DNA from: an uncultured Marivita sp. | GTDB lineage: Bacteria > Pseudomonadota > Alphaproteobacteria > Rhodobacterales > Rhodobacteraceae | DNA length: 32,341 nt | Assembly (NCBI RefSeq): GCF_947488135.1 | Contig: NZ_CANKYW010000016.1 | Coordinates: forward strand, 1-32,341 | Reading direction: 5' to 3' | In this document: positions 78 to 28,456 of the stretch, in pieces | How positions within the stretch are numbered: position 1 is the first letter of the stretch | Layout: each line of letters starts with the position of its first letter | Notes under the pieces: model-generated | The model's database searches: none | What the model was told of the DNA's origin: nothing | What the model saw: the letters and a program-made list of their open reading frames with translations, nothing else | Translations under genes and position numbers: made by a program

Positions 78-521
78 TCTGCCTTGCCTCCCTCGGGATC
101 GGTCGCGTCCTTCGCCTGACAGCTCGCCCCCGCCCGCCCAAGGGGCTTTCGCGGCATATCCTTGTCGCTGCGCTCCTGCGGTATTCCACGGTCCCCTTGT
201 GCGTTCGGTTTCGAGCCGTCCTGCTTGTCCTTGCGCGACCGACCCGAAGGCTGACGAGGAAGTCAGACCCGGCCCCGGTGCGCTCCGGTCAGGAAGCTGA
301 CACCGCTGCGCGGTGACGGTGATTTTCTGGCCCCCTTCGGGGGCCGTGCGCTCCCTCGCCTCTGGCATCAAAGGAAGTCCGAAGGGGGTGCTGGTGTCAA
401 ACTATTTAATTGCAGAAAACGGCAATAAAAAGCTGGGCCGGGCCATATAAACAAGGTAAAAAGGAGGGGCGAAAGGGGCGCACCAAAGCACCCCGCGCCA
501 CCACCACAAAGGACCGAAATC

Positions 522-1421
522 ATGGCAAAACTCGACATTCACCAGCACGTCACGGATACCATCATCGGGCAGATCGAGGCCGGAACCCCGCCGTGGCGCA
601 AGCCGTGGACGGGCGGCGCAGGCGGCGCGGCCCTGCCCTTGCGTCACAACGGCGAAGCCTATCGCGGCATCAACATTCTGATGTTGTGGGCGACCGCCCA
701 TGAACGCGGCTACAATTCGGCGCACTGGATGACGTTCAAGCAGGCGATGGAGCTTGGCGGCATGGTCAAGAAGGGCGAGAAATGCGCCCGCAGCGTGTTC
801 TATGGCACGTTCGAGAAGGACGCCGAGCAGAGCGAGGACAAGGGCGAAGGCGACGGCAAGACCCGCATCCCCTACGCCAAGACGAACAACGTGTTCAACG
901 CCGACCAAATCGAGAACCTGCCCGCCGAATACTACGTCACCCCGGAACCCGCGCGTGACCTTGGCACCGAAGCGAACCCGGAACTGGACGCCTTTTTCGC
1001 AGGGACCGGGGCGGACATTATCAGCACGGACGACGCGCGCGCCTACTACCGCCCCGCGACCGACCAGATCCACATGCCGCCTATCGCAACCTTTCACGAG
1101 GCGAGCGGCTACTACGGCACCCTTGCCCACGAACTTTGCCACTGGACCGGGGCCGAGAAGCGCCTTGACCGGATCAAGAAGTTTCAGAACCGCGAGGCAT
1201 ACGCTTTCGAGGAACTGGTCGCGGAAATCGGCAACTGCCTGTTGTGCCTTCACCTTGGCGTCACCCCGCAATTCGACCAGAGCGCGGCCTATATCGAGGG
1301 ATGGCTGAAAGCGTTGAAGGACGACAAGGGGCTGATTTTCAAGGCGGCGTCCGAGGCGCAGAAGGCGGTTGACTTCATCCTGGCCGCGACCGAGGCCGCA
1401 GAGCAGGCGGAGGCAGCGTAA
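522..1421 (+). CDS. ardC: ArdC-type anti-restriction protein
   Basis: The 299-residue product matches the usual size of ArdC. The N-terminal domain (about residues 5-130, with the VTDTIIGQIEAGTPPWRKPW region near 10-29) is the single-stranded-DNA-binding ArdC-N domain. The C-terminal half is a zincin-like metallopeptidase fold: HELCH at 203-207 gives the HExxH zinc site, and EELVAEIG near 230-237 supplies the third ligand region. ArdC of plasmid pSa protects incoming DNA from type I restriction in the recipient. The start follows AAAGGA with an 8-base gap. The gene is the first after leader A and its stop overlaps the next start by one base. Its position close to the proposed nick on the leading side fits early expression in a recipient. 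Family assignment is firm; the protective role here is inferred. Confidence 0.92.
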   Translation: MAKLDIHQHVTDTIIGQIEAGTPPWRKPWTGGAGGAALPLRHNGEAYRGINILMLWATAHERGYNSAHWMTFKQAMELGGMVKKGEKCARSVFYGTFEKDAEQSEDKGEGDGKTRIPYAKTNNVFNADQIENLPAEYYVTPEPARDLGTEANPELDAFFAGTGADIISTDDARAYYRPATDQIHMPPIATFHEASGYYGTLAHELCHWTGAEKRLDRIKKFQNREAYAFEELVAEIGNCLLCLHLGVTPQFDQSAAYIEGWLKALKDDKGLIFKAASEAQKAVDFILAATEAAEQAEAA

Positions 1422-2008
1422 TGGGCTGGACCTGCCACTATACCCCGCCCAGCGACGAGCGCGCCGAGATTGAGCAGCTTGTGACGTTCGAGAACGAAGA
1501 CCGGGCCATGCGCCCCGTCTTCACCACCCGCAAGGGATCGGTCTGGTATCTGGCCGTCGAAGTCACGGCCAAGACCACGGACGCCGACCCTCACGGATAC
1601 GAGGCGGACGCCCTCGGGCGGTATGTGTTTGCCGCCGTGATCCTGACGCGCCGCGACAACGGCGAATGGTGCTACAAGGACATGGAGGAAAGCATGGGGC
1701 CGCACGAGGCGCAGGCCCCGCAGAAATTGCTCGACCTGCTATCGCCGACGACGAAGGAATACGCCCTCGCATGGCGCGAGCGGTGCAAAGCGTTCGCAGC
1801 CCTTTCTGCCCGCAAGATCGCCCACGGTGACACGATCAGGCTTGCCGAGCCGTTGGAGTTTAGCGACGGGATCGCTCGGGACACCTTCACCGTCCAGCGG
1901 GAGCGGTTCGCCGGAGCGCGACGGGCCACCACCCACTTTCTATGCCAGAAAACGGGAGCCGCTTGCCGGATCAGCAGGTTCATGCAGCGCGCATGGGTCA
2001 AAGTCTGA
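1421..2008 (+). CDS. Conserved hypothetical protein coupled to ardC
   Basis: A 195-residue protein whose ATG shares one base with the ardC stop (TAATG), so the two are almost certainly co-translated. It begins MGWTCHY and has a soluble alpha/beta-looking composition with no signal peptide or membrane segment. A mid-region GEWCYKDMEESMGP motif is followed by a basic C-terminus rich in Arg and Phe. I recall similar proteins beside ardC on alphaproteobacterial plasmids, possibly the DUF6927 family, but I cannot confirm that name. Co-transcription with ardC from leader A suggests a role in establishment or anti-defence. No catalytic motif is evident. Confidence 0.8.
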   Translation: MGWTCHYTPPSDERAEIEQLVTFENEDRAMRPVFTTRKGSVWYLAVEVTAKTTDADPHGYEADALGRYVFAAVILTRRDNGEWCYKDMEESMGPHEAQAPQKLLDLLSPTTKEYALAWRERCKAFAALSARKIAHGDTIRLAEPLEFSDGIARDTFTVQRERFAGARRATTHFLCQKTGAACRISRFMQRAWVKV

Positions 2009-2025
2009 CCATGCCCACACTACCG

Positions 2026-2051
2026 CACGGGGCCGCATCAGCGGCCCCGTG
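2026..2051. terminator. Hairpin after the ardC operon
   Basis: CACGGGGCCGC (2026-2036) and GCGGCCCCGTG (2041-2051) form a perfect 11-bp stem with an ATCA loop, 18 bases after the stop at 2008. There is no T-run, so it may be a weak or factor-assisted terminator, or a 3'-end stabiliser. Confidence 0.5.
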
Positions 2052-2117
2052 TCACGTCTGGCGGTTCGGGTTCAGGCTGGCGGGACGGCATGGCGAGGCG
2101 ACCGGCTTCAAGTTGAC

Positions 2118-2153
2118 AGGGGGGCGGATCATCGACCGATGATCCGCCCCCCT
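2118..2153. terminator. 17-bp perfect hairpin between convergent genes
   Basis: Arms 2118-2134 and 2137-2153 are perfect complements over 17 bp, separated by only two bases. The structure lies between the + strand ardC operon and the minus-strand RHH gene ending at 2190. A second hairpin (CTGGCC/GGCCAG, about 2173-2188) is closer to the minus-strand stop. A bidirectional terminator is the simplest reading, although no T-run is present. A protein-binding or extruded cruciform role is also possible. Confidence 0.5.
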
Positions 2154-2189
2154 GCCCCGCCCTCCGGGCGGGCTGGCCTTCGGCCAGAA

Positions 2190-2510
2190 TTACTTGCCGC
2201 CGCTTTGTGATTGAAGCCACTCGATGATGGCTTCCGGGTTTTCTTTGACAAAATCGCGAACTACGGCGGAAGCGGTTAGAACCTCCCGGTTAGCAATCCG
2301 GTTTATTTTTGCGACGTGATCGTTGACGTTGGCGGCGGCTTCGCCCCGAAGCTGCAATGTGAAGCGAATGGCGGCGGTTTCGTCACTTCGAGGTTTCGGG
2401 TTTTCGGCTTGTCCGGTCGAGGGGGCATCGCCTCCGGCTGATTGAGGGCTAAAGCCTTCAAGAGAGTCGGCCACCTGACGGTCCTTACCCTTTGGGTTCA
2501 TTCTCGGCAT
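2190..2510 (-). CDS. Ribbon-helix-helix DNA-binding partner of the ParA/VirC1-like ATPase
   Basis: A 106-residue protein read from an ATG at 2510, chosen because GAGGTG lies 4 bases upstream; it overlaps the end of the ATPase gene by 26 bases. The first 50 residues are polar and probably disordered. From about residue 50 onward, the strand IRFTLQL followed by two helices (NDHVAKINRIANRE; ASAVVRDFVKENPEAIIEWL) has the form of a ribbon-helix-helix domain. Known analogues are ParG/omega-type centromere-binding proteins, which pair with ParA ATPases and bind short tandem boxes, and VirC2, the RHH partner of VirC1 in Agrobacterium. The octamer array at 3301-3612 is an obvious candidate target. The name is left open because partition and transfer roles cannot be separated here. 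Confidence 0.75.
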   Translation of the reverse strand: MPRMNPKGKDRQVADSLEGFSPQSAGGDAPSTGQAENPKPRSDETAAIRFTLQLRGEAAANVNDHVAKINRIANREVLTASAVVRDFVKENPEAIIEWLQSQSGGK

Positions 2511-3210
2511 CGAACACCTCTGCAATCTTTGATGTATATTCGTATATCGCGTTTTTGGCCTTGTTGCGGGCTGCGTTGCTGATCGGCCGTGATCCCTCCA
2601 CTGGCAGGATGCCTTCGTCCAACTGCGCGGGCGTTCGACACGCTTCGACCCAATTCGAGATATGGGGGCTGTGCGTCAGCCCTTTTCGGATGAAAGCGGT
2701 TTCGGAGAGGTTTTCCAGCTTCTCGCGTTCGGCGTTGCTGATGAACCGAACCGTTCCGACATACAGTCCGACGAAGCTGTCAGGGGTTTCCTCGTTCATG
2801 GCCTCGAACACTTTTTGATATGTCTCTTTCGTTCGGTTGAACCCCTCTATGTCCCATTCGGTGAGGGAAAACGGTGCTAGAACCAGATCGGCCGAGTAAA
2901 GCGCGGGCATTGTCATCCTGTTCGCGTTGCCCGGAGTGTCGAGAACAATGAAGTCCGGGCCGTCGCAAAGCTGGACGATCTGTTCGTTCGTTGACTCGAA
3001 ATCCGCTTCCTTGGGGTCCATGAAAATGGAGTCTAGGGATTCGTGGTGTGCGGCGGTTTCATCGGCCCACGCCCCGAAACTGCCTTGGGGGTCGGTTTCG
3101 ATCGCTCTTACGGTATGACCGCGATCCAGAAGACCGGCGGTCAAGGCGGCGGCGTGAGTGGATTTGCCGACTCCGCCTTTCAGACTGGCGAAAACTATCA
3201 ATATGCCCAT
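2485..3210 (-). CDS. ParA-family ATPase, VirC1-like
   Basis: A 241-residue P-loop ATPase of the ParA/MinD class. The deviant Walker A box KGGVGKST is at residues 11-18. The ETDPQGS segment near 38-44 and the FIVLDTPGNANR segment near 87-98 are the Walker A' and B regions. ParA proteins segregate plasmids by binding a partner on centromere DNA. VirC1 has the same fold and helps assemble the VirD2 relaxosome at overdrive DNA. The segment LTEWDIEGFNRT resembles VirC1 in position and pattern, and the gene lies beside a VirD2-like relaxase with an RHH partner downstream. It has no long N-terminal HTH domain, unlike RepA of repABC units. A weak AGG precedes the ATG at 3210. The ATPase call is firm; VirC1-like versus partition ParA is undecided. 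Confidence 0.85.
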   Translation of the reverse strand: MGILIVFASLKGGVGKSTHAAALTAGLLDRGHTVRAIETDPQGSFGAWADETAAHHESLDSIFMDPKEADFESTNEQIVQLCDGPDFIVLDTPGNANRMTMPALYSADLVLAPFSLTEWDIEGFNRTKETYQKVFEAMNEETPDSFVGLYVGTVRFISNAEREKLENLSETAFIRKGLTHSPHISNWVEACRTPAQLDEGILPVEGSRPISNAARNKAKNAIYEYTSKIAEVFDAENEPKG

Positions 3211-3300
3211 TTTTTTGCCTGTATCATTTTCGGGTTGTCACAGAGCGGCACGACGGCATCAGAATTGTCTTGTCAGCTCGGATACTGGCGTCCTGCCGGT

Positions 3301-3612
3301 GTCGCGACCCTGTGACCTCGCCATTGCGTTATCTTGCAAGATTGTTGTGTCGTCAAGTCGCTGCGTCGCCACATAGCCACACCGCACAATTGTAATGTCG
3401 CGTGGTCGCAATCCGGCTGCATCGCAAAGTAGTGAGGTCGCAGGGTCGCGTGGTCGCAAGGCTTCGAGATTGCTAGGTCGCCAAATCGCGAGTTGTTGTA
3501 GTCGCGTGGTAGCGATGTTGGTGGCTTGTCTGGTTGCGCGGTCGCGAGGTCGCGAAGGCGCGGGGTTGCGAGGGCGCGGGGTTGCGAGGGCGCGAGGTTT
3601 TCATATTGCGAG
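3301..3612. repeat. Phase-locked octamer array (consensus GTCGCGAG)
   Basis: Cut into 8-base units from 3301, this stretch gives 39 consecutive units. G stands at unit position 4 in 36 of them, usually followed by C. All 15 exact TCGC tetramers in the stretch (T at 3302, 3318, 3358, 3366, 3398, 3406, 3422, 3438, 3446, 3454, 3478, 3486, 3502, 3542, 3550) share the same phase modulo 8. Near 3541-3596 the array tightens into 16-base units of alternating GGCGCGGG and GTTGCGAG. Weaker units may extend back to about 3269. It lies between the ATPase promoter and the oriT-like structure. Candidate roles are a centromere for the RHH protein or an overdrive-like transfer enhancer. It is not protein-coding. 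Confidence 0.85.
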
Positions 3613-3839
3613 TTATCATAGCGACAGTCCCGCCAGGACATGGGCAAGGATTTTATTGAGGCCGTTTTCCGCGCCGCTGGGGCGGTTCCCGTCTTTTTGG
3701 GGTGCCAGGGTAGCGGAGGCGGCGACTCGCGCCTCTGGCGGGCCTCTCCGGGGCGCTGCGAGGCATTGGAGCCTGCAAGCAGGCTGCGGTTAAGCGGTAT
3801 GACGCCCTTCGATCTGCCGATCTCCGGGAAGAAAATTGC

Positions 3840-3931
3840 CAAACACTACCCGTATCTTGCCCCCCAATCCTTTTATCCGACACCTGCGGCGTCGGAGGAT
3901 TGTCAAAGTGGGGGGCAAGGGGTAGTGTTTG
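3840..3931. other. oriT-associated 92-bp imperfect inverted repeat
   Basis: Outer arms CAAACACTACCC (3840-3851) and GGGTAGTGTTTG (3920-3931) are perfect complements. Next inward, CTTGCCCCCCA (3856-3866) pairs with TGGGGGGCAAG (3909-3919), then AATCC (3866-3870) with GGATT (3897-3901), and TCCGAC (3876-3881) with GTCGGA (3891-3896). The whole folds as a long interrupted stem ending 5 bases from the nick candidate. Relaxase accessory proteins of the MOBP class bind inverted repeats near nic, so this is probably part of oriT. In RP4-type origins the repeat lies 5' of nic on the nicked strand. Here the large repeat is on the 3' side, which is unusual. Confidence 0.7.
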
Positions 3932-3933
3932 AG

Positions 3934-3973
3934 TTGCAGGATATGTGCAATGTTAACCAAAATTGCATTTTGG
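3934..3973 (-). other. Candidate nic site of oriT (T-border-like)
   Basis: The minus strand reads ATATCCTG followed by CAACTC, which fits the MOBP nick consensus YATCCTG/Y. The predicted cut is between the complements of 3937 and 3936. Read on the + strand, 3934-3958 agrees with the Agrobacterium T-DNA border at 15 of 25 positions, including the whole core CAGGATAT. A TTGCA/TGCAA pair flanks the core, and a small inverted repeat CCAAAAT/ATTTTGG (3957-3973) lies on the 5' side, touching the mobC ribosome-binding site. A VirD2-like relaxase is encoded just downstream. If correct, transfer begins leftward toward ardC. The position is inferred from motif match only. Confidence 0.65.
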
Positions 3974-3981
3974 AGCCATGT

Positions 3982-4545
3982 GTGAAGCCTTTTGAACGTC
4001 GAAACCGCATCCGAACCCTGCTGTCGCAAGGCGTTCCGGCCGCGCAGATCGCGCGCCAGCTCGGCGTTGCGCCATCGACGGTTTATCGCATCAGGAGCGG
4101 CCAGGGCGCGATCATTGGCGATCGTGCGGGCTACGTTTCTATCGGAACGAAAGTCACGGAACACGAAAAGGCGGGTCTGGACCGACTCGTTCGGGCGAAG
4201 GTTGCGCCCAGCCGGTCAGCCTTGTTGCGAAAAATGACGCGGGCCGTGAGCGGATTCTATGATCCGAACCCCGGCGAGGAAGAGTTTCTGGCGGAGGCGT
4301 TGCGGCACCTGACCGCCCTCGGGGGGAACTTCAACCAGATCGCAAAAGACCTGTCGGTGTCGGTCAAGCGCACCGGCGAGGCCAACGCTTCCGCCGCGCA
4401 GATCGAGCGGATACGGCAGGCGAACGATGAGGTCGAGAAGATCAAGCGGGTCGTCGGGTCCATGCTTCGGAACACGCAGGTAAAGGCCGTGACGTTGCAC
4501 GAGCGGGTATCCGCGCCCATCCCCCAGGACGCCGACGATGAGTAG
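3982..4545 (+). CDS. mobC: MobC-like relaxosome accessory protein
   Basis: A 187-residue protein from a GTG at 3982, preceded by GGAG with a 6-base gap. The frame stays open upstream to 3640, but that stretch runs through the inverted repeat and nick site, so I treat it as non-coding. An N-terminal helix-turn-helix (about residues 7-40, QGVPAAQIARQLGVAPSTVYR) is followed by a central segment with LRHLTALGGNFNQIAKDLS, typical of MobC-family proteins that help the relaxase open oriT. The C-terminus (QANDEVEKIKRVVGSMLRN) looks like a helical oligomerisation segment. The stop overlaps the relaxase start by 8 bases. Its own HTH and the palindrome at its ribosome-binding site suggest autoregulation. 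The extra HTH makes it longer than minimal MobC proteins. Confidence 0.8.
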   Translation: MKPFERRNRIRTLLSQGVPAAQIARQLGVAPSTVYRIRSGQGAIIGDRAGYVSIGTKVTEHEKAGLDRLVRAKVAPSRSALLRKMTRAVSGFYDPNPGEEEFLAEALRHLTALGGNFNQIAKDLSVSVKRTGEANASAAQIERIRQANDEVEKIKRVVGSMLRNTQVKAVTLHERVSAPIPQDADDE

Positions 4546-6640
4546 GGGCTATTCCGCCATCGAGCAGGTCATGGGCCGGTTGCTCGACCGTGACCCGCCC
4601 AAATCGGGTGGCTCGCTGCGCGGTTTGCGTCCGGGGTCGCGCGGGGGCCGTTTTTCCAACGGCAGCGGGCCTTCGATCAGCCGCATGAGCCGTGTGGGTG
4701 CGCGGCACGGTCAGGCGATCTTCAAGCTGGTCCGCACCGGAGGCGTGGACAGCCGAAGCGGGTTGAAGGGTCAGCTCGACTACATTTTCCGGGACGACAA
4801 GGTGGCCGAGGTAATCGACCCCAGCGGGATCGTAATGCCGCACGACGAGCCGAACGGTCGGCAGATCAACCGGCTGGTCGATAGCCTGTCCGATAACTGG
4901 TGGGCGAAGACCAGGAACGGCCAGACCTCGCATATGATCCTTAGCTTTCCGAACGGAACCTCGATCAAGGACGTGGCCGGGATCGTCCGGGACGTTTGCA
5001 ACGAGAAGTTCGAGAGCGGGGACGTTCGCTATAAATACGTTGCCGCCATCCATGACGATCAGGAACACCACCCCCACGCGCATATCGTCCTGAACCGACG
5101 GGGCAGCGACAACAGCCTTTTCAACATGCGGCGCGGCACGGACCACAGCTACGAGGGTTTCCGAGAGGCAATGGCGGTTCATGCGGAGCGGCGTGGGATC
5201 ATGCTCGATCCGACCTCGCGGTTCGAGCGCGGCATCACAGATCGGCAGCCGACCCAGACGGAGCAATGGAACGCAAGCCGGGAAGGCCGCGCACCCCAGC
5301 AACGGCCCCGCACAGGTGCGGATTTGGAGTATGCACAGGAGCAGATCAGCCTTGCCAGGATCGGCTACGAGGCAATGGCCGTGATCGCGGCGAACGCCGA
5401 CTGCCAGCGCCTTGAGCGCGCTTATACCGATGTAGCGAACATGCTAATGTCCACAAAAGGAGACTACGAAATGCCAGCACTTAGCGCCGATGAATTGGAA
5501 AAGTTCGATCAATATTCGTCACTCTTGAACGACGCGCTTGCGAAGTCACAAGAGGTTCTTCGGACGAAGGACGCCACCGACCGCGTTCCCTACGAAAAGC
5601 AGCTCACGGCGAACATGGCCGCGTTCACGGCGCTCAATCCCGATGCCGCTTACGCCAAGGGTTTGCACGAAGACCCGAGTGGCAAGTCGATCTACATGCA
5701 CCAAGCCGAGGGCGACGAAGCTACGTGGTCGCGCGCGGCGGAACGGATCGAGGAATACACCCAAGGCACCGGGCTGGACGCCCAGGCGATCACAGCTCGA
5801 CTGCAAGCCGGGGCAGGGAACCTCTATCTCGAACAGATGTGGATGCAGGATGATTTGCGGCAGGTCGCCAAGGCGTCCGACCTTAGCCTTTCCGATCCGG
5901 TTCAGCGTCAGCAGGCAATCTCGGAGTTGGCGAACGCCTATCAGGAAATCCGCGAGGATCTTCAAGCGCACTACGACATTCGACCCATCCCGCAGTTCGA
6001 GCCGGACTATCTCGACGCGAACGGGCGGCCCACGGTTACGGCGGCAGAGCGCGCCAGTCTCGAAAACCAGTTCAGCCGCACCGACTTCAACTACGGATAT
6101 GCAGACGATGCTTCGGCCCGCAACAGTGGACGTGAACAGGTCGAAGCGGCACGGACACGTTTCGCCGAGTTCGCGCAGCAATCGCGAAATCACGCCGTTT
6201 TCGCGTCGGCCCTATGGGATAAGTCAACTGACATTGTTCGTCCGCCCGAAGGCTATCTGCCCGAGGCCGAGCGCGAACGCATGGCACCAGAAGAAGCCGC
6301 GGCCGAGTTGGATCGTTTCGCCGACCTCAAGGCGCGTAGCGGTGACGACTACATGCTGACCAACAGCGCCGAGGAACATCAGGAAGTCATTCGGCTTCTC
6401 AAGGAAAATACCACGGACGCGCAGTATGACCGCTTCCGCAGGGGCGATCTAAGCGCCATCGACCACATCACCGACGACAAGGTGTTCAGCCGCCAGCTCT
6501 TGATGCAGGCTGAAATGAACAACCGCAGCACCGGCTTTGAAATGTCGGACGAGACCGAACGCCTCATGTCCGACAGCCGCGACTACCTCAAAGACACGTT
6601 CGAGGCGGATCGGAACAATCCCTACGAGAACGAGAGGTAG
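4538..6640 (+). CDS. VirD2-like (MOBP) relaxase
   Basis: A 700-residue relaxase that should nick oriT and lead the transferred strand into the recipient. About residues 55-240 match the VirD2 layout. Y82 in GQLDYIFRDD fits the catalytic tyrosine; SHMILSFPNGT (131-141) fits motif II; the metal-binding motif HDDQEHHPHAH is at 172-182; and the later RGIMLDPTSRFERGI segment resembles the VirD2 sequence that follows its catalytic domain. Residues beyond about 250 form a long acidic, helical C-terminal region with no helicase or primase motif that I recognise. It may carry the secretion signal near the charged C-terminus. The start overlaps mobC by 8 bases and virD4 follows after 5 bases, so mobC, relaxase and virD4 form one operon. 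Catalytic assignment is firm; the C-terminal function is unknown. Confidence 0.92.
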   Translation: MSRGYSAIEQVMGRLLDRDPPKSGGSLRGLRPGSRGGRFSNGSGPSISRMSRVGARHGQAIFKLVRTGGVDSRSGLKGQLDYIFRDDKVAEVIDPSGIVMPHDEPNGRQINRLVDSLSDNWWAKTRNGQTSHMILSFPNGTSIKDVAGIVRDVCNEKFESGDVRYKYVAAIHDDQEHHPHAHIVLNRRGSDNSLFNMRRGTDHSYEGFREAMAVHAERRGIMLDPTSRFERGITDRQPTQTEQWNASREGRAPQQRPRTGADLEYAQEQISLARIGYEAMAVIAANADCQRLERAYTDVANMLMSTKGDYEMPALSADELEKFDQYSSLLNDALAKSQEVLRTKDATDRVPYEKQLTANMAAFTALNPDAAYAKGLHEDPSGKSIYMHQAEGDEATWSRAAERIEEYTQGTGLDAQAITARLQAGAGNLYLEQMWMQDDLRQVAKASDLSLSDPVQRQQAISELANAYQEIREDLQAHYDIRPIPQFEPDYLDANGRPTVTAAERASLENQFSRTDFNYGYADDASARNSGREQVEAARTRFAEFAQQSRNHAVFASALWDKSTDIVRPPEGYLPEAERERMAPEEAAAELDRFADLKARSGDDYMLTNSAEEHQEVIRLLKENTTDAQYDRFRRGDLSAIDHITDDKVFSRQLLMQAEMNNRSTGFEMSDETERLMSDSRDYLKDTFEADRNNPYENER

Positions 6641-6645
6641 GCATC

Positions 6646-8649
6646 ATGCAACGTCAACTCGCCGCAGGGCTGTTCTTCGCAATGGGCGGGCTGATGCTTG
6701 CCTACATTTTCGCAACCGTCTGGGTGGACTACAATCTGCCCGGCGCCATCGGCTACGGCTATCTGGTCAGGGACGGCCTCGATCTACAGTGGCGCGACCC
6801 TGACCTGTTCACGCATGTCTGGCTGATTTTCCTGTTCTGCGCGATCGGCGGTTTCGCGTTCGGGGCGCACTTCGCGTCCGAAGCGTTGACCCAGCAGGGG
6901 AAGTCGAAGTGGCAGTCGCTGGCCCAGATGCGCCGGAACAAGCTGTTGGGCAAGCCGGGCAAGGGTTTCGTCCTCGCCAAGACGACCCGGCCGAGTTTGC
7001 CCGGTCGCTTCGTCACGTCCGACAAGTATCCCAACTGTCTGATCGTCGCCCCGACCGGGGCCGGTAAGGGTGTCGGTTTCGTCTATCCGAACCTTCTGAC
7101 CTTCGAGGGATCGACGGTCACGCTCGACATTAAGGGCGAGAACTACGAGACCACGGCCCGGTGGCGGTCGAAGATGGGCAACAAGGTTTACAAGTTTGCG
7201 CCCGTCCAATTCGGTCAGCCGTCGCACCGATACAACCCGCTCGACCGGATCGGCAAACTGCCGACCTACGGACAGATTAACTTCGAGCTACGCAAGATCG
7301 CCACGCTGTTCCTTCAAGCCGATGGGGCAGGGGAGTGGTTGAACGGCGCGATACAGCTTTTCTGTGTGATTGGCGGCGTTGCCCACGAGCGGCGCGACTT
7401 CACCCTGGGCGGCATCTATCGCGTCTTGTCCGAGGGCGAGGATAACCTGCAAAAGCACTTGAAAGTCCTTTCCCAGACCGTTCAGGAACCATCGTTGCAG
7501 CGCGAACTGGCGTCGCTCGCCAAGTTGGAGCAGCGCACGCTTTCATCCTATATGTCGGTGATGAACAACGCCGGGTTCGACCTTTGGTCCAACCCGCACG
7601 TTGACGACATGACTTCGGCCAGCGATTTCAGCTTCGAGGACATACGGCGCGAGAAGACTTCGATCTACTTCATCGTGTCAGACGGCGACCTCAAACCCTT
7701 GGCCGGCCTTGTGCGGCTCTTTTTCAACGAACTCGTCTCGACCATCCAGGCGCGCAAACCGGGCAAGGACGAGCCGTATCACGCCATGCTGATCCTCGAC
7801 GAGTTTCACAGGCTGGGCAAAATGTCCGAGGTAGCGGAGGCCATGACCACGATCCGGGGCTTCAATGGCCGGATCGCCATCATCACGCAGACCATCCCGA
7901 AGCTCGACGCGATCTATTCCTACGAGGAACGGCTTTCCATTCAGGGTGGCGCGGGCTTGAAGCTCTACATGACGCCATCGGAGGAAATGACCATCGAAGA
8001 CCTGTCGAACGCGGTCGGCATGACAACGAAGCGCACCGTTACCCGGTCGCGTCAGGCAGGGCTGGGGCAGCGCGCTACGTTCACCGAGCGCACTGACGAG
8101 AAGCCGCTTCTGACCGAGGACGATGCCCGTCGCCTGCCCGAAGATGTGAGCATTATCATCGTGAACGGCAAGCAGCCGGTAAAGGTCAAGGCGATCGTCC
8201 ACTGGAAGGATCGGCGCTTCAAGAAGATCCTCAAGAAGCAGGAGAAGCTAGGATGGGATGCTGTCACCGACTCGCTGTTACAGTCGCGCATCGACAACCT
8301 TGAGCGCCGCGCAGCGAAGTCGCCGCAATCGGGGCCGGGTTCCGCATCGGGCGGTGTCGAACGCTCGGCCGACCCGGCATTGGCACTGCCGCCGGTCAAG
8401 CAGCTCACGACCGACGACCTGAAAACGGTCGCTGCCTACGTCGCATCATCGCTCGATCTTCTGGACGAAATACAAAAGATCAAAGACGCGAAGGCAGAAC
8501 CATCGGTCGATGCACGTCCCGATAAGAAGGGTAAGCGCGCGCGCGTGACGTTGAAGGGGCAGGCCCAGCTCGATTTGGGCGACATGGAAGTCGGGGGCGC
8601 GCCAAAGGACAAAGGCAGTGAGAGCAAAAAGCCGCCCGAGGCAGCTTGA
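6646..8649 (+). CDS. virD4: VirD4/TraG-type coupling protein
   Basis: A 667-residue inner-membrane ATPase that links the relaxosome to the secretion channel. Two hydrophobic segments (about 5-28 and 56-78) anchor the N-terminus. Walker A APTGAGKG is at 135-142, and Walker B is in HAMLILDEFHRLG at about 380-392, followed by the ITQTIPKLDAIY sensor region typical of VirD4/TraG. The C-terminal 100 residues are Lys- and Asp-rich and probably cytoplasmic. AGGTAGG precedes the ATG. It is the last gene of the mobC-relaxase-virD4 operon and is followed by a strong hairpin terminator. It faces virB6, the last gene of the secretion operon on the other strand. Confidence 0.95.
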   Translation: MQRQLAAGLFFAMGGLMLAYIFATVWVDYNLPGAIGYGYLVRDGLDLQWRDPDLFTHVWLIFLFCAIGGFAFGAHFASEALTQQGKSKWQSLAQMRRNKLLGKPGKGFVLAKTTRPSLPGRFVTSDKYPNCLIVAPTGAGKGVGFVYPNLLTFEGSTVTLDIKGENYETTARWRSKMGNKVYKFAPVQFGQPSHRYNPLDRIGKLPTYGQINFELRKIATLFLQADGAGEWLNGAIQLFCVIGGVAHERRDFTLGGIYRVLSEGEDNLQKHLKVLSQTVQEPSLQRELASLAKLEQRTLSSYMSVMNNAGFDLWSNPHVDDMTSASDFSFEDIRREKTSIYFIVSDGDLKPLAGLVRLFFNELVSTIQARKPGKDEPYHAMLILDEFHRLGKMSEVAEAMTTIRGFNGRIAIITQTIPKLDAIYSYEERLSIQGGAGLKLYMTPSEEMTIEDLSNAVGMTTKRTVTRSRQAGLGQRATFTERTDEKPLLTEDDARRLPEDVSIIIVNGKQPVKVKAIVHWKDRRFKKILKKQEKLGWDAVTDSLLQSRIDNLERRAAKSPQSGPGSASGGVERSADPALALPPVKQLTTDDLKTVAAYVASSLDLLDEIQKIKDAKAEPSVDARPDKKGKRARVTLKGQAQLDLGDMEVGGAPKDKGSESKKPPEAA

Positions 8650-8663
8650 TCCAGAACGAGGGG

Positions 8664-8685
8664 AAGGGGGCCAAGGCCCCCTTTT
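8664..8685. terminator. Terminator between virD4 and virB6
   Basis: AAGGGGGCC (8664-8672) and GGCCCCCTT (8675-8683) form a stem with an AA loop, followed by more T. It lies in the 36-base gap between two convergent operons and can end virD4 transcripts. Because the A/T tails are symmetrical it may also serve the minus-strand virB operon. Confidence 0.85.
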
Positions 8686-9768
8686 CTATTTCCGCCGGAG
8701 CCGCGTCACCCGTTCCGCCGCCCGGTTGATTTGCGCGGCCCGCAGGTTCACACCCTCGCGGGTGTTCGCCACCGGGTTTTTCAGGAATCCTGCCGTGTCG
8801 CTGGCGACATTGCGCGCTCCCGATCCAATCGCCGCACCGCGTTCAGCCGCTGATCGGGGTTGCGCGGGGTCCATACCCATCGCGCCGCGCGCCGCTCCGC
8901 CAGCCCCTCGCGCCATCGAGCCACCCGCTCTTTTCAGCGCCCCGCTGGCCAAGGCCGTGACAGCCCCAAGTGCGAAGTCGCCTGCCACCAGCGTGACGAT
9001 CAGCGGGCTAAGAAGAACGAGGAAGCACGCGAGCACAAGGACGGTCAGAATTGGAGTTACCTGCCCGATCGCCGAAACATCATCGGGGTCGATGCCAGAG
9101 ATAGTCGCGTTTCCCATCCCGAGGATCGTCGCGAAGATCCCGATAAGAATGAGAGGATACATCAGAACTTTGATTACTCCGCTCAACCATGTGTCAAAAT
9201 AGGACTTCGTGACGGTGGTGAGTGTGGCGAGGATGGCAAGTGGTGCGAGGCCGACCAGAACGGCGAGAACGACCCTGGACGCTACCATCGCCAGCGTTGC
9301 GAGAGCGCCGAAGACCGCGATGGCCATGAACATCAGCCCGTTAATCACGCTTCCCAGAATATTCATCCGACCGGCGGTCACGTTCGCATATTGGCCCATT
9401 TCCAGCGACAGGTTATCGAGTTCCTGCGGGAAGCTCGTTTCAGTTTCGCCGTCGCCCAGGCCCCCCGCAAGCAGCGCGTTGCCGACCGCTTCAAACCCTG
9501 TCTCTATGGCATTGAATACCCCGTTGAAGTCGGTCCAGCTCTGCATGAACAAAGCAACCAGAACCAGCTTGAAGATCAGCCAGACTGAAGTTCCGGCTTC
9601 CATCGGGCGGATTTGTAATGCCATGTTGAACAGAACCAGCACTACCACCAGCGCGGACAATATCTGCGCGGTGGTGCCGATTTGAGAGGCGACCGCCTCG
9701 AACTGCGTCTGGCCCAATGAGTCCAGCAGCGCCATTGTGCTGGTGTAGGTTCTTTCGATGAAACCCAT
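8686..9768 (-). CDS. virB6: VirB6/TrbL-type inner-membrane channel protein
   Basis: A 360-residue polytopic membrane protein. Hydrophobic segments are visible at about residues 32-48, 62-78, 135-160, 163-190, 200-225 and 245-275. The C-terminal 80 residues are Gly/Ala/Arg-rich and cytoplasmic in character. The NILGSVINGLMFMAIAVFGALATLAMVASRVVLAVLV region belongs to the VirB6/TrbL family, which forms part of the inner-membrane channel of type IV secretion systems. It is the last gene of the minus-strand operon; in most virB operons virB6 sits between virB5 and virB8, so this position is non-canonical. Its ribosome-binding site overlaps the stop of the preceding gene. Confidence 0.9.
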   Translation of the reverse strand: MGFIERTYTSTMALLDSLGQTQFEAVASQIGTTAQILSALVVVLVLFNMALQIRPMEAGTSVWLIFKLVLVALFMQSWTDFNGVFNAIETGFEAVGNALLAGGLGDGETETSFPQELDNLSLEMGQYANVTAGRMNILGSVINGLMFMAIAVFGALATLAMVASRVVLAVLVGLAPLAILATLTTVTKSYFDTWLSGVIKVLMYPLILIGIFATILGMGNATISGIDPDDVSAIGQVTPILTVLVLACFLVLLSPLIVTLVAGDFALGAVTALASGALKRAGGSMARGAGGAARGAMGMDPAQPRSAAERGAAIGSGARNVASDTAGFLKNPVANTREGVNLRAAQINRAAERVTRLRRK

Positions 9769-22337: not shown

Positions 22338-22430
22338 AAATGAAAACCCCCCGCAAGGCGGCAACCTAGCGAGGGGGGGCTTTTAGAACCTAGGAATTGG
22401 CGTTCCGAAGGGTCCACTACCGATAACTTG
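22338..22430 (-). ncRNA. Possible antisense RNA controlling repC
   Basis: Plasmids with RepC initiators usually encode a small counter-transcribed RNA just upstream of repC. Here a hairpin at 22347-22377 (CCCCC plus CGC against GCG, a bulged A and GGGGG, with an inner AGG/CCT) is followed by TTTTCATTT on the minus strand and by CTTTTAG on the + strand, so it could end transcripts in either direction. On the minus strand TTGCCA (about 22463-22458) with TAGAAC about 18 bases downstream is a weak promoter candidate. The limits are estimates. The RNA is inferred from position and structure, not from sequence similarity. Confidence 0.35.
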
Positions 22431-22544
22431 GACTGGTTCTACCACCCCCCCAACATCACTGGCAAGCGAAAAACGCACCTGTGCGAACAGGGAAATCTTG
22501 CCCCGCGCCGCCTTGTCCCACTCACCACATCGAGGACAAGAACC

Positions 22545-23738
22545 ATGACCACAGCGAACCACCCGGTCCTGCCGCAAGGCTTCAAGAGATTTTCTGTCGA
22601 GCAGACCTTGCTCAAGGCCGCAGCCCTCATCGGCCTGCGCGGCCCCACCCTTCACGCCCTCCTGCACATGATGCAGAAGACCGATCCCGCCGCCTGGACT
22701 GATCCCGCGCGGGAGCCCGTCTTCTTCGCCCCACAGGACGAAACCGCCCGCGCCCTGGGCAAGACCCGCCGCGCCCTCTACAACACCGAAATAACGCTCG
22801 AACGCATGGGCCTCATCGAGCGCCGCGTGAAGGCCAACGGCCAGCGATCCTCGCACGGCAAATGCGGCATCGTCTTTTCCAAGCTAATCGCCGCTTTCCC
22901 CGACCTTCTGAACCTCATCGAGCAGGCCGAGATCGAGCGTCGCCGCATCAAGGCCCTCGCCAACGAACGCAGCTCATGCCTGCACTACGTCAACGCCCGC
23001 CTGCGCGAAGCGACGAACGACGACAGCACCTTAGATCACATCCGCGGCGCGCTGGCCGCATGGCCGCGCACCGACAGCCTCACCCGCATGGGCCTCGACG
23101 CCCTCGAAGCCCATGTCGAAGACGCCCGCCGCCTGTGCATCGCCGTCGATGATGTTCTCGATTTACTGCGTGATTCTTCCGGTGAACCGGCAGAAAACTT
23201 CCGGTCCCATATACAAGAGAACAACGTAATAGATAACTCTGTATCCTGTAACGACGCCGTGGATAGATGGAGCGCGGGCAAACCCGCGCACTCTGATTTA
23301 CCTGTGTCGGAGCCTACCGGCCCCGGCGATTGCAGAGAAAATGAGTGTGAAGCGGCAAGCGCATCGCGCAAGGCCAAAATGCTCGCGCATCTGACCCCGG
23401 ACAGGATTTTCAAGATGGCTTCGGCCGACATGCAGCACGCAATCAGCGTCCAGTTGGGCAACAGGACCGAGCCGCGCAAGAGCGACTTCTTCCGCGCCGC
23501 CGAAGCCATGCTGCCCGCCCTCGGCATCAACCCTTCCGCCTGGAACGACGCCGTCTCGTTCATGGGGATCGACCGCGCCTGGCTCACCGTTCTTCTGATC
23601 GACGCGAACCGCGACCACCCCGAAACCCCCGTCAAATCGCCCGGCGGGCTGTTGCGGACCCTGACCCGCAAGGATCGGGAGGGCACCTTCAAGCTCGACG
23701 GCGGGCTGATCGGCCTTCTGACGCGCAAAGGCGTCTGA
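22545..23738 (+). CDS. repC: RepC replication initiator
   Basis: A 397-residue protein of the RepC family, the initiator of alphaproteobacterial repABC-type plasmids. The start at 22545 follows GAGGA by 9 bases; the open frame upstream to 22428 is leader. The N-terminal domain (about 1-170) holds the winged-helix region FFAPQDETARALGKTRRALY and ITLERMGLIERRVKANGQRS. A variable linker lies near 205-260. The C-terminal domain (about 265-397) ends with SPGGLLRTLTRKDREG and GLIGLLTRKG. RepC binds an AT-rich origin inside its own gene. No repA or repB precedes it; the only ParA and ParB-like proteins are far away and in separate units. The next gene begins in the repC stop. Confidence 0.92.
   Translation: MTTANHPVLPQGFKRFSVEQTLLKAAALIGLRGPTLHALLHMMQKTDPAAWTDPAREPVFFAPQDETARALGKTRRALYNTEITLERMGLIERRVKANGQRSSHGKCGIVFSKLIAAFPDLLNLIEQAEIERRRIKALANERSSCLHYVNARLREATNDDSTLDHIRGALAAWPRTDSLTRMGLDALEAHVEDARRLCIAVDDVLDLLRDSSGEPAENFRSHIQENNVIDNSVSCNDAVDRWSAGKPAHSDLPVSEPTGPGDCRENECEAASASRKAKMLAHLTPDRIFKMASADMQHAISVQLGNRTEPRKSDFFRAAEAMLPALGINPSAWNDAVSFMGIDRAWLTVLLIDANRDHPETPVKSPGGLLRTLTRKDREGTFKLDGGLIGLLTRKGV
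23155..23275. other. Putative oriV within repC
   Basis: This part of repC is clearly more AT-rich than the rest of the gene. It includes the palindrome CCGGTGAACCGG (23179-23190), a repeated CTTCCGGT (about 23176 and 23198) and an AT-rich run through 23205-23250. In repABC plasmids the origin lies inside repC in such a stretch. The encoded residues form the low-complexity linker, so DNA function could shape the sequence. The assignment rests on family knowledge and base composition. Confidence 0.45.
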
Positions 23739-25748: not shown

Positions 25749-25859
25749 ATGAGCAGAGAGACTTTGACAGCCCGGATTGCGGAAGCATGGGCGCTTGTCA
25801 GGAAGGGCGATGATTTTGGCATCGGACGCCGCTTCCTGATCCAGCACGGAGCCATTTAA
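25749..25859 (+). CDS. 36-residue protein with a near-perfect ribosome-binding site
   Basis: A short open frame (MSRETLTARIAEAWALVRKG, ending RFLIQHGAI) that would be missed by length filters. AAAGGAGGTGA at 25734-25744, almost fully complementary to the 16S rRNA tail, lies 4 bases before the ATG. The peptide is predicted helical and basic. It lies 65 bases after the DUF3768 gene and 77 before the ParB-like gene. A small regulator, inhibitor or adaptor is possible. The evidence is translational, not functional. Confidence 0.6.
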   Translation: MSRETLTARIAEAWALVRKGDDFGIGRRFLIQHGAI

Positions 25860-25936
25860 GGCCCCTCGCCTCGCCCCGTCAGGGGCGGGGCAACCAATAA
25901 CACGAAACTCACCACACGAAAACAAGGAATGTCCCA

Positions 25937-27790
25937 ATGACCAAGCAAACGAAAATCACCGCCGCAGAAGCCCGCTTTCCGCTGGCGAGTCTGACCCTTT
26001 CGACCATGAACCCGCGCCAGAACGTGCCGGAGCAGGACGTGATCGAGTTGGCCCAGAGCATCTGGACCGCTGGGCTGATCCAGAACCTTTCGGGGATGGC
26101 GACCGACGAAGGCGGAGCCGAAATCGTGGCAGGGGGCCGCAGGCTTCGCGCCCTGCAATATCTGGCCGAACAGCATCCCGACATGGCCGAGACGCGGCCC
26201 GAACTGGCGAACCCGCTGGTCAATCTCGCGCCCGACCGGACCACGGCAGAGGCATGGGCGACGACCGAGAACATCGCGCGGCGCGACCTGCACCCCGCCG
26301 AGGAAATCCGCGCCTATGGCAAGATGGAAGCCGCAGGAGCGCCCCCCGCCACCATCGCGCGCGCCTTCGCGGTGACGGAGAAGCACGTCTATCGCCGTCT
26401 TGCGCTGGCGCACCTTCCCGCGCCCGTGCTGGACGCCTTGCAGTCCGACGAAATCACCCTGTCCGGTGCCGCCGCCTTCACCATCGGCGACGACGAAAAG
26501 CGCAGCCTTGAGGTCTTGGAGCAAGTGCGAGGGTCCAACACGTCCGACTATCACATCAAACGCCTGTTGAAGCCCGACACCGTGCGGGGCAGCGACCGCC
26601 GCGCGATCTTCGTCGGCGTGGACGCCTACAAGGCCGCAGGGGGCCGGATAGGGGGCGATCTGTTCGCCGACGAAACCCTTTTCGATGATCCCGACACGCT
26701 GGACACGCTTTTCCGAGAAAAGCTGGACGCCGCCGCGAAGCTGCACCGCGAACAGCAGGGCTGGAAATGGGTCGAGGTCAGCCCCGAGTCCTATGTCGGC
26801 TGGTATCACATCGAGCAGGGCAAGTTCGATCGGGTCTATCCCGCCGAGGGCGACCTGACCGAAGCCGAGGCCGAGCGGTATGACGAACTGGCCGAACTGG
26901 CGGACGGCGACGTGCTGGACGACGAAGGGCAAGCCGAACTGGACGCCTTGCAGGCCAAGCAGGACGGTTCCTATACCGACGAGCAGAAGGCCCATGCGGG
27001 CGCGATCCTCTACATCGACAACGAGGGGCGTATTCAGGGTTACGAAGGGCTTGTGCGCGGCGCGGACAAGGCCGACGCCATCGCCGCTGGCGTCTTGCAA
27101 AAGAGCCGCCACAGAGCCGACGAGGACGAGGGGCCGAAAGACCCGATCAGCCAGAAATTGCGCGACGACCTCAACCGCGTGGCACAGGGCGCACGGCAAC
27201 ACGCGGCATTGCGCGACCCCGACCTGTTGATCGATCTTCTGGCCTATCAGTTGAGCCATGCCTTGAACTGGAAGAACCCGTTGGGGATCAGCCTGACGGA
27301 CGTGCCGAACTGGCCCACGACAGAGGCCGATGGCTACGCGCTGGACGAGCGGCTGACCGCCAATCCGCCCCGCGATATGTGGGATGCGAAAGACCTTGGC
27401 GCATCGTTCCGCGCGTTCCGCAAGAAGGGGTCGGAGCATGTGCGCGGCGAGTTGGTCCGGTTCCTTGCCGCTCAATATCGCGGGGGCGACGAGAAGCTGG
27501 CCGCGATGATCGACAAGGAGACGCAGCCGAGCATCCGCGAGGTTTGGACGCCCACGGCAGCGAACTTCTTTTCCCGTGTGGGTGGCCCCTACCTCAACGA
27601 GTTGTGGCGTGACCTTCTGGGGCTGACGGCGGATCATCCGACGATCACCACGTTCGAGCGGCTGAAAAAGGGCGAGAAGGCCGAGCGGCTGGAAAGCCTT
27701 TTCACCGACGAGGCGACCCGCACCGCCCTTGGCCTGACGGACGAGCAGATCGCCCGCATCGCCGAATGGCTTCCCGAAGGCATGGCCTGA
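25937..27790 (+). CDS. Long ParB/Spo0J-like protein
   Basis: A 617-residue protein with a ParB N-terminal domain. FPLASLTLSTMNPRQN begins it, IVAGGRRLRALQYL is the CTP-binding/arginine box, and ENIARRDLHPAEEIRAY is the third conserved box. A helix-turn-helix follows (ATIARAFAVTEKHVYRRLALA, about 139-159). The remaining 400 residues are unlike partition ParB and much longer than usual, with an acidic stretch near 305-345. No parA lies beside it. Similar long ParB-like proteins (for example YubM of IncF plasmids) are typical of leading regions, where they are not part of the partition system. A function in early establishment is therefore more likely than segregation. Confidence 0.85.
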   Translation: MTKQTKITAAEARFPLASLTLSTMNPRQNVPEQDVIELAQSIWTAGLIQNLSGMATDEGGAEIVAGGRRLRALQYLAEQHPDMAETRPELANPLVNLAPDRTTAEAWATTENIARRDLHPAEEIRAYGKMEAAGAPPATIARAFAVTEKHVYRRLALAHLPAPVLDALQSDEITLSGAAAFTIGDDEKRSLEVLEQVRGSNTSDYHIKRLLKPDTVRGSDRRAIFVGVDAYKAAGGRIGGDLFADETLFDDPDTLDTLFREKLDAAAKLHREQQGWKWVEVSPESYVGWYHIEQGKFDRVYPAEGDLTEAEAERYDELAELADGDVLDDEGQAELDALQAKQDGSYTDEQKAHAGAILYIDNEGRIQGYEGLVRGADKADAIAAGVLQKSRHRADEDEGPKDPISQKLRDDLNRVAQGARQHAALRDPDLLIDLLAYQLSHALNWKNPLGISLTDVPNWPTTEADGYALDERLTANPPRDMWDAKDLGASFRAFRKKGSEHVRGELVRFLAAQYRGGDEKLAAMIDKETQPSIREVWTPTAANFFSRVGGPYLNELWRDLLGLTADHPTITTFERLKKGEKAERLESLFTDEATRTALGLTDEQIARIAEWLPEGMA

Positions 27791-27849
27791 CCATAGCGCA
27801 GGGCGCGCAAGCGCCCTGCCCCTTCCCCAGATCGCAGGAGACCGACGCC

Positions 27850-28167
27850 ATGCCCATTAAAACCTATACCATCGCCACCAACCGCGCCGAGACGGAGCCG
27901 CGCAAGGGCCACATCGTCAGCTTTGCCCGTGAGGGACAGACGCCCGTGGACGTGGCGCTTTACAAGACGAGCGGCGGCTATGCCGCCGACCATCCCCGCA
28001 CTGGCTACGCGATCCGCGCGTTCGACCAGATCAGCCGCATGGGACCGCCTGTGCCGTTCAAGGCAGCGAAGGAGAGCCTTCTGTTCATGCTGGACGACAT
28101 GGAAGGCTACGAGCGCATCCGTGAGGGATGCCGCGCCCTGCCCGTCCTGAATCCCGATTTTCGATAA
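27850..28167 (+). CDS. Hypothetical protein
   Basis: A 105-residue soluble protein from the ATG at 27850, with GGAG 9 bases upstream. It begins MPIKTYTIATNRAETEPRKG and includes FAREGQTPVDVALYKTSGGY and ESLLFMLDDMEGYERIREGC. No domain is recognised. It follows the ParB-like gene after 59 bases and is followed by another gene after 25, so it is probably in the same operon. Confidence 0.65.
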   Translation: MPIKTYTIATNRAETEPRKGHIVSFAREGQTPVDVALYKTSGGYAADHPRTGYAIRAFDQISRMGPPVPFKAAKESLLFMLDDMEGYERIREGCRALPVLNPDFR

Positions 28168-28192
28168 TCTGATTGCCGGAAGGATCGAGACC

Positions 28193-28456
28193 ATGCCGAA
28201 CTTCACTGCCCATCGTCACCCCGTCCTGGCTGTTCGTTGCCCCGATTGTCGCAAGGCCCCTGGTATCTGGTGCGTCCGGCCCAGCGGTCACAAGGCCAGC
28301 GACCTTCACCAAAGCCGGAAGGCCGAGGCCGACCGCGTGTTCATCGAGCAGCACGGACCAGACGCCAGCATCGAACGGATCGGTGAAAGCTGGACCATCG
28401 ACCCATGGGGACGCGCTGGCATCCGCCCGCAACCCGAGCAACCATCGTTTTTCTAG
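28193..28456 (+). CDS. Small zinc-finger protein
   Basis: An 87-residue protein with a compact metal-binding motif: CPDC at 16-19, PGIWC ending at Cys 27, and His 33/His 39 followed by QSRKAEAD. The pattern CPxC...PGxxC...G...H..R is shared with small zinc-binding proteins of phages and plasmids that bind nucleic acid. The C-terminal half is less structured. AGGA precedes the start. Probably co-transcribed with the preceding gene. Confidence 0.75.
   Translation: MPNFTAHRHPVLAVRCPDCRKAPGIWCVRPSGHKASDLHQSRKAEADRVFIEQHGPDASIERIGESWTIDPWGRAGIRPQPEQPSFF

Follow-up and report, generated by a model that had tools for sequence, protein, structure and literature searches.

A phase-locked octamer array beside oriT as a putative binding strip of a ParA/VirC1-like ATPase-adaptor system

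Ti plasmids carry virC and virD in divergent order, pRi has a transfer stimulator with short repeats, and parH of plasmid TP228 has a 4+4-bp step. VirC1 is described as binding overdrive and raising T-strand production (PMC4285021), as well as promoting relaxosome assembly and helping to bring the substrate to the channel (PMC4285021, PMC4949242). Partition and transfer are also brought together in R388, where StbA is reported to bind 9-bp repeats adjoining oriT and to affect both stability and transfer (PMC3098194), and NAH7 provides a further link of this kind (PMC12421886). For pSM19035, full activation of the ParA ATPase by its RHH adaptor is reported to need at least four contiguous heptads, and two heptad triplets split by a gap fail at it (PMC9499535).

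The DNA analysed here (the window) is a stretch of 32,341 nucleotides from an uncultured Marivita sp., whose ends overlap by 77 bases, so that it probably represents a circular plasmid of about 32.26 kb. Its array of octamers is flanked on one side by a divergent ParA/VirC1-like gene and on the other by an oriT carrying a MOBP-type nick motif (Table 1), the core of which, ATCCTG, is that described for MOBP relaxases (PMC3772185). The start of the MobC/NikA-like gene is uncertain (ATG 3943, TTG 3970 or GTG 3982). After the VirD4-type gene, VirB6-, VirB11-, VirB10- and VirB4-like genes are found on the minus strand, and an ArdC-type gene lies at 522–1421. The annotation of pRL7 places virC1 and virD1 in the same divergent order as the ATPase and mob genes of the window. 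In addition, a RepC-like replication protein is encoded at 22428–23738, no RepA-type partition gene being found on the same contig, and the region 25856–28206 contains two frames (593 and 190 aa) without Pfam or PHROG match.

Table 1. Positions of the array and of the neighbouring transfer features in the window
Feature	Position	Strand	Remarks
106-aa protein P0002	2190–2510	-	VirC2/adaptor position; overlaps the end of the ATPase gene
ParA/VirC1-like deviant-Walker ATPase, P0001	2485–3210	-	KGGVGKST
Phase-locked octamer array	3301–3612		39 units; core TYGY/TYGC (phases 1–4) + 4-bp spacer
Most regular part of the array	3532–3599		16-bp unit GGTTGCGAGGGCGCGA; sister-plasmid length differences fall here
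oriT inverted repeats, two nested	3840–3931		3840–3851 with 3920–3931; 3856–3866 with 3909–3919
MOBP-type nick motif ATATCCTGC	3936–3944	-	core ATCCTG
MobC/NikA-like relaxosome protein with HTH	3943–4545	+	NikA-like match under the Pfam cut-off
VirD2-like relaxase	4538–6640	+	
VirD4-type coupling protein	6646–8649	+	

Analysis of the array confirmed that it is real. Identity at lag 8 reached 0.503, compared with 0.269 ± 0.026 in 5000 dinucleotide-preserving shuffles (z 9.0; 0/5000 as high), and the folded period-8 information was 5.19 bits compared with 0.41 ± 0.13 bits, so the autocorrelation check proposed in the initial annotation gave a clear excess. With the most regular end removed (3301–3530 alone), lag-8 identity was 0.468, compared with 0.257 ± 0.030, and the top lag-8 score elsewhere in the window (312-bp stretches starting before 2900 or after 3700) was 0.355. 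Phase 1 is T in 31/39 units, phase 2 is C or T in 34/39, phase 3 is G in 36/39 and phase 4 is C or T in 38/39, which corresponds to a 4-bp core, T-(C/T)-G-(C/T), followed by a 4-bp spacer of looser sequence. All 15 exact TCGC words fall in one phase, and the description of some 39 octamers running over 312 bp with TCGC in a single phase was borne out. Identity stays at 0.36–0.47 at multiples of 8 up to 240 bp (expected 0.26); this coherence, together with the spacer-biased variation among sister plasmids described below, agrees with the earlier claim that spacing is kept more than sequence.

Regarding its class, the array has the tandem short boxes upstream of a parA-adaptor operon by which type Ib partition sites are recognised. 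CRISPR repeats measure about 25–40 bp and are separated by unique spacers, and replication iterons are usually repeats of about 20 bp within or beside the rep gene. Both were rejected, as they had been in the initial annotation, the array being made of contiguous 8-bp steps and the RepC-like gene lying far off. A separate period-9 signal (score 7.2) was found in the VirB6/TrbL-like reading frame at about 9111–9391, probably a three-codon repeat; since a coding stretch can score so high, the array score taken by itself lacks specificity for periods that are multiples of 3.

An ATPase identical to P0001 is encoded by two other records, L006 (Roseovarius aestuarii) and L007 (uncultured Sulfitobacter), whose arrays measure 362 and 328 bp, compared with 312 bp in the window. 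The L007 array is 16 bp longer with the register kept, and that of L006 is about 50 bp longer with a two-base slip in all; as 362 leaves a remainder of 2 when divided by 8, one-base slips occur in it. Loss of register in homologous plasmids, named in the initial annotation as evidence against its reading, was thus absent from L007 and present, as a slip of two bases, in L006. Within the alignable first 256 bp, 14 of the 17 variable sites lie in the spacer and 3 in the core (binomial P = 0.006; three sequences), with the core/spacer division taken from the window's own columns and set before per-phase counting but after the variable sites had been listed. The 90-bp flank beside the array showed no variable site among the three sister plasmids. 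L006 differs from the window by 16 mismatches in the 256-bp array and 4 in the 726-bp ATPase gene, and L007 by 6 and 0, respectively; variation was also seen beyond the array, at 2000–2200 in L006 and over about 400–2000 in L007. The oriT stretch of L007 was excluded from the comparison, as its 184 mismatches stem from a one-base gap. Across window positions 418–9195, the records named Roseovarius and Sulfitobacter are 98–99% identical to the window, which suggests recent transfer between genera.

When window positions 2100–4700 were used in a search for similar plasmid DNA, the oriT core alone matched, in 8 records. This core of about 49–55 bp (window 3925–3979) showed 86–94% identity to the 8 plasmid records (Paracoccus, Sulfitobacter, Octadecabacter), including L119 (3751–3799), L120 (2012–2060) and L121 (4001–4056). 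L119 has an annotated mobilization protein and L120 is without annotated relaxase, and plasmids like these two may be mobilised in trans by plasmids like the window's. In L119, L120 and L121, three of the 8 records sharing the core, no array was found within 800 bp of it, so the array is not needed for keeping an oriT of this type.

A survey of VirC1-family genes revealed matches in 102/390 genomes of the same order (judged from the relatives to be Rhodobacterales), at 139 places. Ninety of them were scanned, corresponding to the best 92 minus G225:C26 (too near the contig start) and G000:C15 (the same as L003), with the 47 lower-scoring places, the window itself among them, outside the scan. 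Among the 50 scanned loci with a divergent MobC-like frame upstream, 49 showed an array of short period within 1 kb upstream of the ATPase gene, with best periods of 7 in 28 of them, 14 in 12, 8 in 7, 9 in one and 13 in one. Of the loci without MobC match, 16/40 had an array upstream. These calls were made with a threshold of z > 5.5, chosen after a first look at the data, and with a MobC profile derived from 13 neighbours, among them that of the window. Stretches of at most 1 kb on the downstream side, most of them coding, exceeded the threshold in 4/90 cases (1/30 in an earlier set), and the highest of 900 shuffles of 30 loci was 4.8, compared with the threshold of 5.5. In L041, the sole MobC-linked locus without an array, the MobC match is weak (E 0.0012) and similarity to close relatives is limited to the last 55 bp, which points to a probable rearrangement of its upstream region.

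When the ATPases were clustered at 70% identity together with those of 14 named plasmids and the window, and scored by cluster median, an array was detected in 26/26 MobC-linked clusters and in 6/15 of the clusters counted as not MobC-linked, so arrays are not a hallmark of transfer alone. For the 14 named plasmids, MobC linkage was assigned from position and annotation (the neighbour in L015 carries the annotation Hin recombinase), and the clusters counted as not MobC-linked include L063/L076, half of which have a MobC match, as well as L052 and L053, which lie on the MobC side of the tree. No array was found upstream in L003 (z 3.5), L002, L004 or L005. The array of the window thus belongs to a widespread class whose members also have other step lengths, a point missed in the initial annotation. 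L012 and L014, with a related relaxase and no VirC1-like gene in the stretch examined, gave scores of 4.0 and 4.3 in the region preceding the mobC-like gene, which are under the threshold and slightly over their own 30 shuffles (3.7 and 3.9). In L010 and L011, where a ParA gene lies beside the replication initiator, the scores were borderline (6.1 and 5.4), a hint that short arrays also occur at partition-type loci.

The step of these arrays varies by lineage (7, 8, 9 or 12–13 bp), and so does the word: TYGC in the window, GACA in L020 (Phaeobacter, period 7), GGTGC in L092 (period 9) and CATGAC in L018 (period 13). Total length is similar across the different unit lengths, with a median of 337 bp (IQR 280–360) in the MobC-linked loci with an array (64/65), compared with 145 bp and 17 units (medians) in the 16 array loci without detected MobC. 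The nick motif was found in 57/65 MobC-linked loci, where mononucleotide shuffles predict 0.6; it lies on the MobC side, 339–858 bp upstream in 56 loci and 124 bp in L103. This supports the link between array and oriT drawn in the initial annotation. Shorter arrays (periods 5, 7, 10 and 11) were observed before ParA genes without MobC match, among them those of L064, L068, L070, L073, L075, L080, L088, L090, L093 and L106, and these are perhaps partition sites. In close pairs, the array was less alike than the ATPase gene in 38/43, and homogenised array blocks were seen in relatives. The numbers of gaps whose length is a multiple of the step (41/499 in g20, 12/39 in roseo7, 7/20 in cga, 8/50 in k38 and 3/9 in the window group) are too ambiguous to be used.

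The ATPase P0001 scored 47.3 bits with VirC1 (PF07015; cut-off 24), with AAA_31 higher at 59.8, and 44.5 bits with the NCBIfam VirC1 equivalog, far from its cut-off of 313. Its earlier naming as VirC1-like is thus retained as a distant relationship only, with an unsure place on the tree; the end branch of P0001 there measures 4.26, and no other row is more than 28% identical to it. MobC-linked and other ParAs are separated on this tree by 3 label changes, compared with 31.9 when shuffled, long branches leaving parts of it unsure. No relatives of P0001 were found in viral contigs, and at E ≤ 1e-25 the 390 genomes of the order yielded the window's own genome only. P0001 may be a VirC1 that has diverged strongly, or a partition cassette may have come to occupy this position.

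The partner P0002 (106 aa from the first ATG) had no match in Pfam, PHROGs or the plasmid collection; NCBIfam gave one match far under the cut-off, to FlhF (16.6 bits, cut-off 777), and the best PDB sequence had an E of 1.1. At E ≤ 1e-3, it was found among the 390 genomes in the window's own genome only. It did not match VirC2 (PF07181), and hhalign with a VirC2-like alignment gave a probability of 0.1%; that alignment matched the VirC2 structure at 2.5e-10 with known VirC2 rows and not at all when these were left out. The description of P0002 as an RHH protein was not supported by these searches, a strand-helix-helix shape in its C-terminal half being readable by eye only. The affiliation of P0002 and P0001 is the weakest link of the whole account.

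A bridge to VirC1-VirC2 systems comes from relatives of the window, as VirC2 was matched by 2/7 scanned partner proteins. One belongs to L029 (VirC1 318.7 bits; VirC2 30.5 bits, cut-off 25), with an upstream array of period 8, and the other to L009 (Haematobacter pOT1-9; VirC1 256.6 bits, VirC2 28.5 bits), with one of period 9. The rhizobial virC1-virC2 loci L027 and L028 have short intergenic regions without an array, their upstream neighbours being a divergent virD1 and virB11, respectively. Likeness of array words is confined to loci with similar partner proteins. Partner and ParA distances were correlated with r = 0.91 over 39 loci, from which the window is absent because its partner is short. 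A partial test on the array word favoured ParA (0.168; 0/2000 permutations) over the partner (0.055; 102/2000), though r = 0.91 is too high for the two to be separated as the one that tracks the word.

The VirC1-like gene was the sole ParA-type ATPase gene found with models PF13614 and TIGR03453 on 8/15 plasmids (window, W01, W02, W03, W07, W08, W10 and W11), and the other seven carry a RepA-type partition ATPase as well (in W13, by weak, split matches only). The array is kept in both classes, which, together with the tree separation of the MobC-linked ATPases, favours a transfer role common to all. On the window's plasmid, partition is, from this gene content, a likely second role of the array system. 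The two models offered in the initial annotation, a centromere read by the adjacent protein and an overdrive-like enhancer of transfer, are not exclusive, given the arrays before VirC1-VirC2 pairs and on plasmids with and without a RepA-type ATPase.

As related arrays occupy the same place with other steps and words, the array is probably the landing strip of a motor system that brings the plasmid into place for transfer or for inheritance. More specifically, we consider it rather likely that it is a cis-acting binding strip of the adjacent ParA/VirC1-like ATPase-adaptor system, of the type Ib centromere or overdrive kind. The 106-aa partner would bind one 8-bp step after another, recognising the 4-bp core and accepting varied sequence in the 4-bp spacer, so that an unbroken nucleoprotein filament would cover the roughly 300 bp. 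Such a filament could then engage and stimulate the ATPase, which would position the plasmid together with the adjoining oriT and relaxosome. The function shared by the family would most likely be to help the relaxosome assemble and reach the type IV secretion system, as with overdrive, and on plasmids without another ParA, the window's included, the same complex may also serve segregation. A demand for contiguity like that of pSM19035 would select for contiguity and spacing while the spacer letters drift, which matches the pattern seen here. A further proposal, tentative and somewhat less probable than not holding, is that plasmids with a VirC1-type ATPase have a satellite-like transfer centromere beside oriT. 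Its length would be fairly constant, at some 300–400 bp, with contiguity and phase preserved while step and word change fast, and a fast-diverging adaptor reading it would give each lineage a private code, by which the transfer or segregation machinery would leave co-resident plasmids alone.

The main competitor, to which we give a minor though real share of probability, is a plain type Ib partition centromere, with ParA and the 106-aa adaptor segregating the plasmid and the proximity of oriT incidental or historical. It would account for the plasmids where the VirC1-like gene is the sole ParA found, for the short partner of the window, comparable to that of 97 aa in MobC-free loci such as L064, for the shorter arrays before ParA genes without detected MobC, and for the best identity of P0001, 28%, being to the MobC-free ParA of L073. 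However, 7/15 plasmids keep the array in spite of their RepA-type partition genes, the MobC-linked ParAs stand apart on the tree (partly unsure, as said), and the arrays of MobC-linked loci have roughly double the length. That the array acts as an operator or silencer in transcription from the two divergent promoters (virC and mob), without a direct part in DNA movement, appears improbable. The array does fill the divergent promoter region, and ParG is reported to repress its own operon too (PMC7308502), but some 40 units over 300 bp would exceed what an operator needs, and arrays with different unit lengths resemble each other in total length. In addition, no sigma-70-like promoter was found in a search of 3150–4050, which is weak evidence either way.

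A neutral minisatellite, grown by slippage in tolerant intergenic space, also has little probability in our opinion. Fast change relative to the ATPase gene, both between L006 and the window and in most close pairs, the length changes and the homogenised blocks of relatives are all expected from it, but not the same position in 26/26 MobC-linked clusters with differing words, the sparing of core sites in the three sister plasmids, or phase coherence over 200 bp in spite of point divergence. As for a coding repeat or RNA element, we regard it as practically negligible: open frames cross the array region on both strands, but steps of 7, 8 and 13 do not correspond to whole codons. The coding repeat was rejected on the length changes of 16 and 50 bp in the sister plasmids, which are not multiples of 3, and an RNA family because no Rfam model matched the window at gathering score.

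If read as a cis-acting binding strip of the ATPase-adaptor system, this class of arrays provides a shared DNA element, in a virC/virD-like arrangement, on which the proposed connection of ParA partition with conjugation can be tested. Steps of 7, 8, 9 and 12–13 bp in one position form a natural series for studying the measurement of DNA by adaptor filaments. Rapid turnover of words with the core spared among sisters resembles the turnover of centromere satellites, and it may bear on which plasmids can live together. A literature search turned up no account of arrays of this kind between virC1 and oriT, which is weak evidence of their absence, as subscription papers were mostly unreached.

Among known systems, ParF-ParG-parH of TP228 is similar in its ParA-type ATPase, small adaptor gene and upstream centromere of degenerate 4-bp boxes with spacers. 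In contrast to parH, which has fewer units than the 39 found here, the window array is GC-rich and lies beside oriT, and its adaptor has no Pfam match (ParG being compared by description). The delta-omega-parS system of pSM19035 shares the contiguous short steps, 7 bp in that case, and is described as needing their contiguity (PMC9499535); the commonest best period among the relatives of the window, 7 or 14, recalls those steps. However, pSM19035 has direct and inverted heptads, whereas the window has a single core orientation, other words and an oriT context. Comparable to the arrangement in the window, stbABC/stbDRs of R388 is an operon for a DNA-binding protein and a ParA-like ATPase that adjoins oriT, with short direct repeats in the promoter region (PMC3098194), although R388 has two sets of five 9-bp repeats with 2-bp spacing instead of 39 units in one phase (StbA, likewise, by description). 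Finally, the Agrobacterium Ti overdrive/VirC1-VirC2 system resembles the window in its VirC1-family ATPase with the partner gene next to it, its divergent mob/virD operon and its VirD2-like relaxase, and arrays precede VirC1-VirC2 pairs in L029 and L009 too. Overdrive, compared here by description, is reported to lie to the right of the T-DNA right border (PMC4285021), whereas the window array, with its 39 units over about 300 bp, lies between virC1 and an ordinary oriT.
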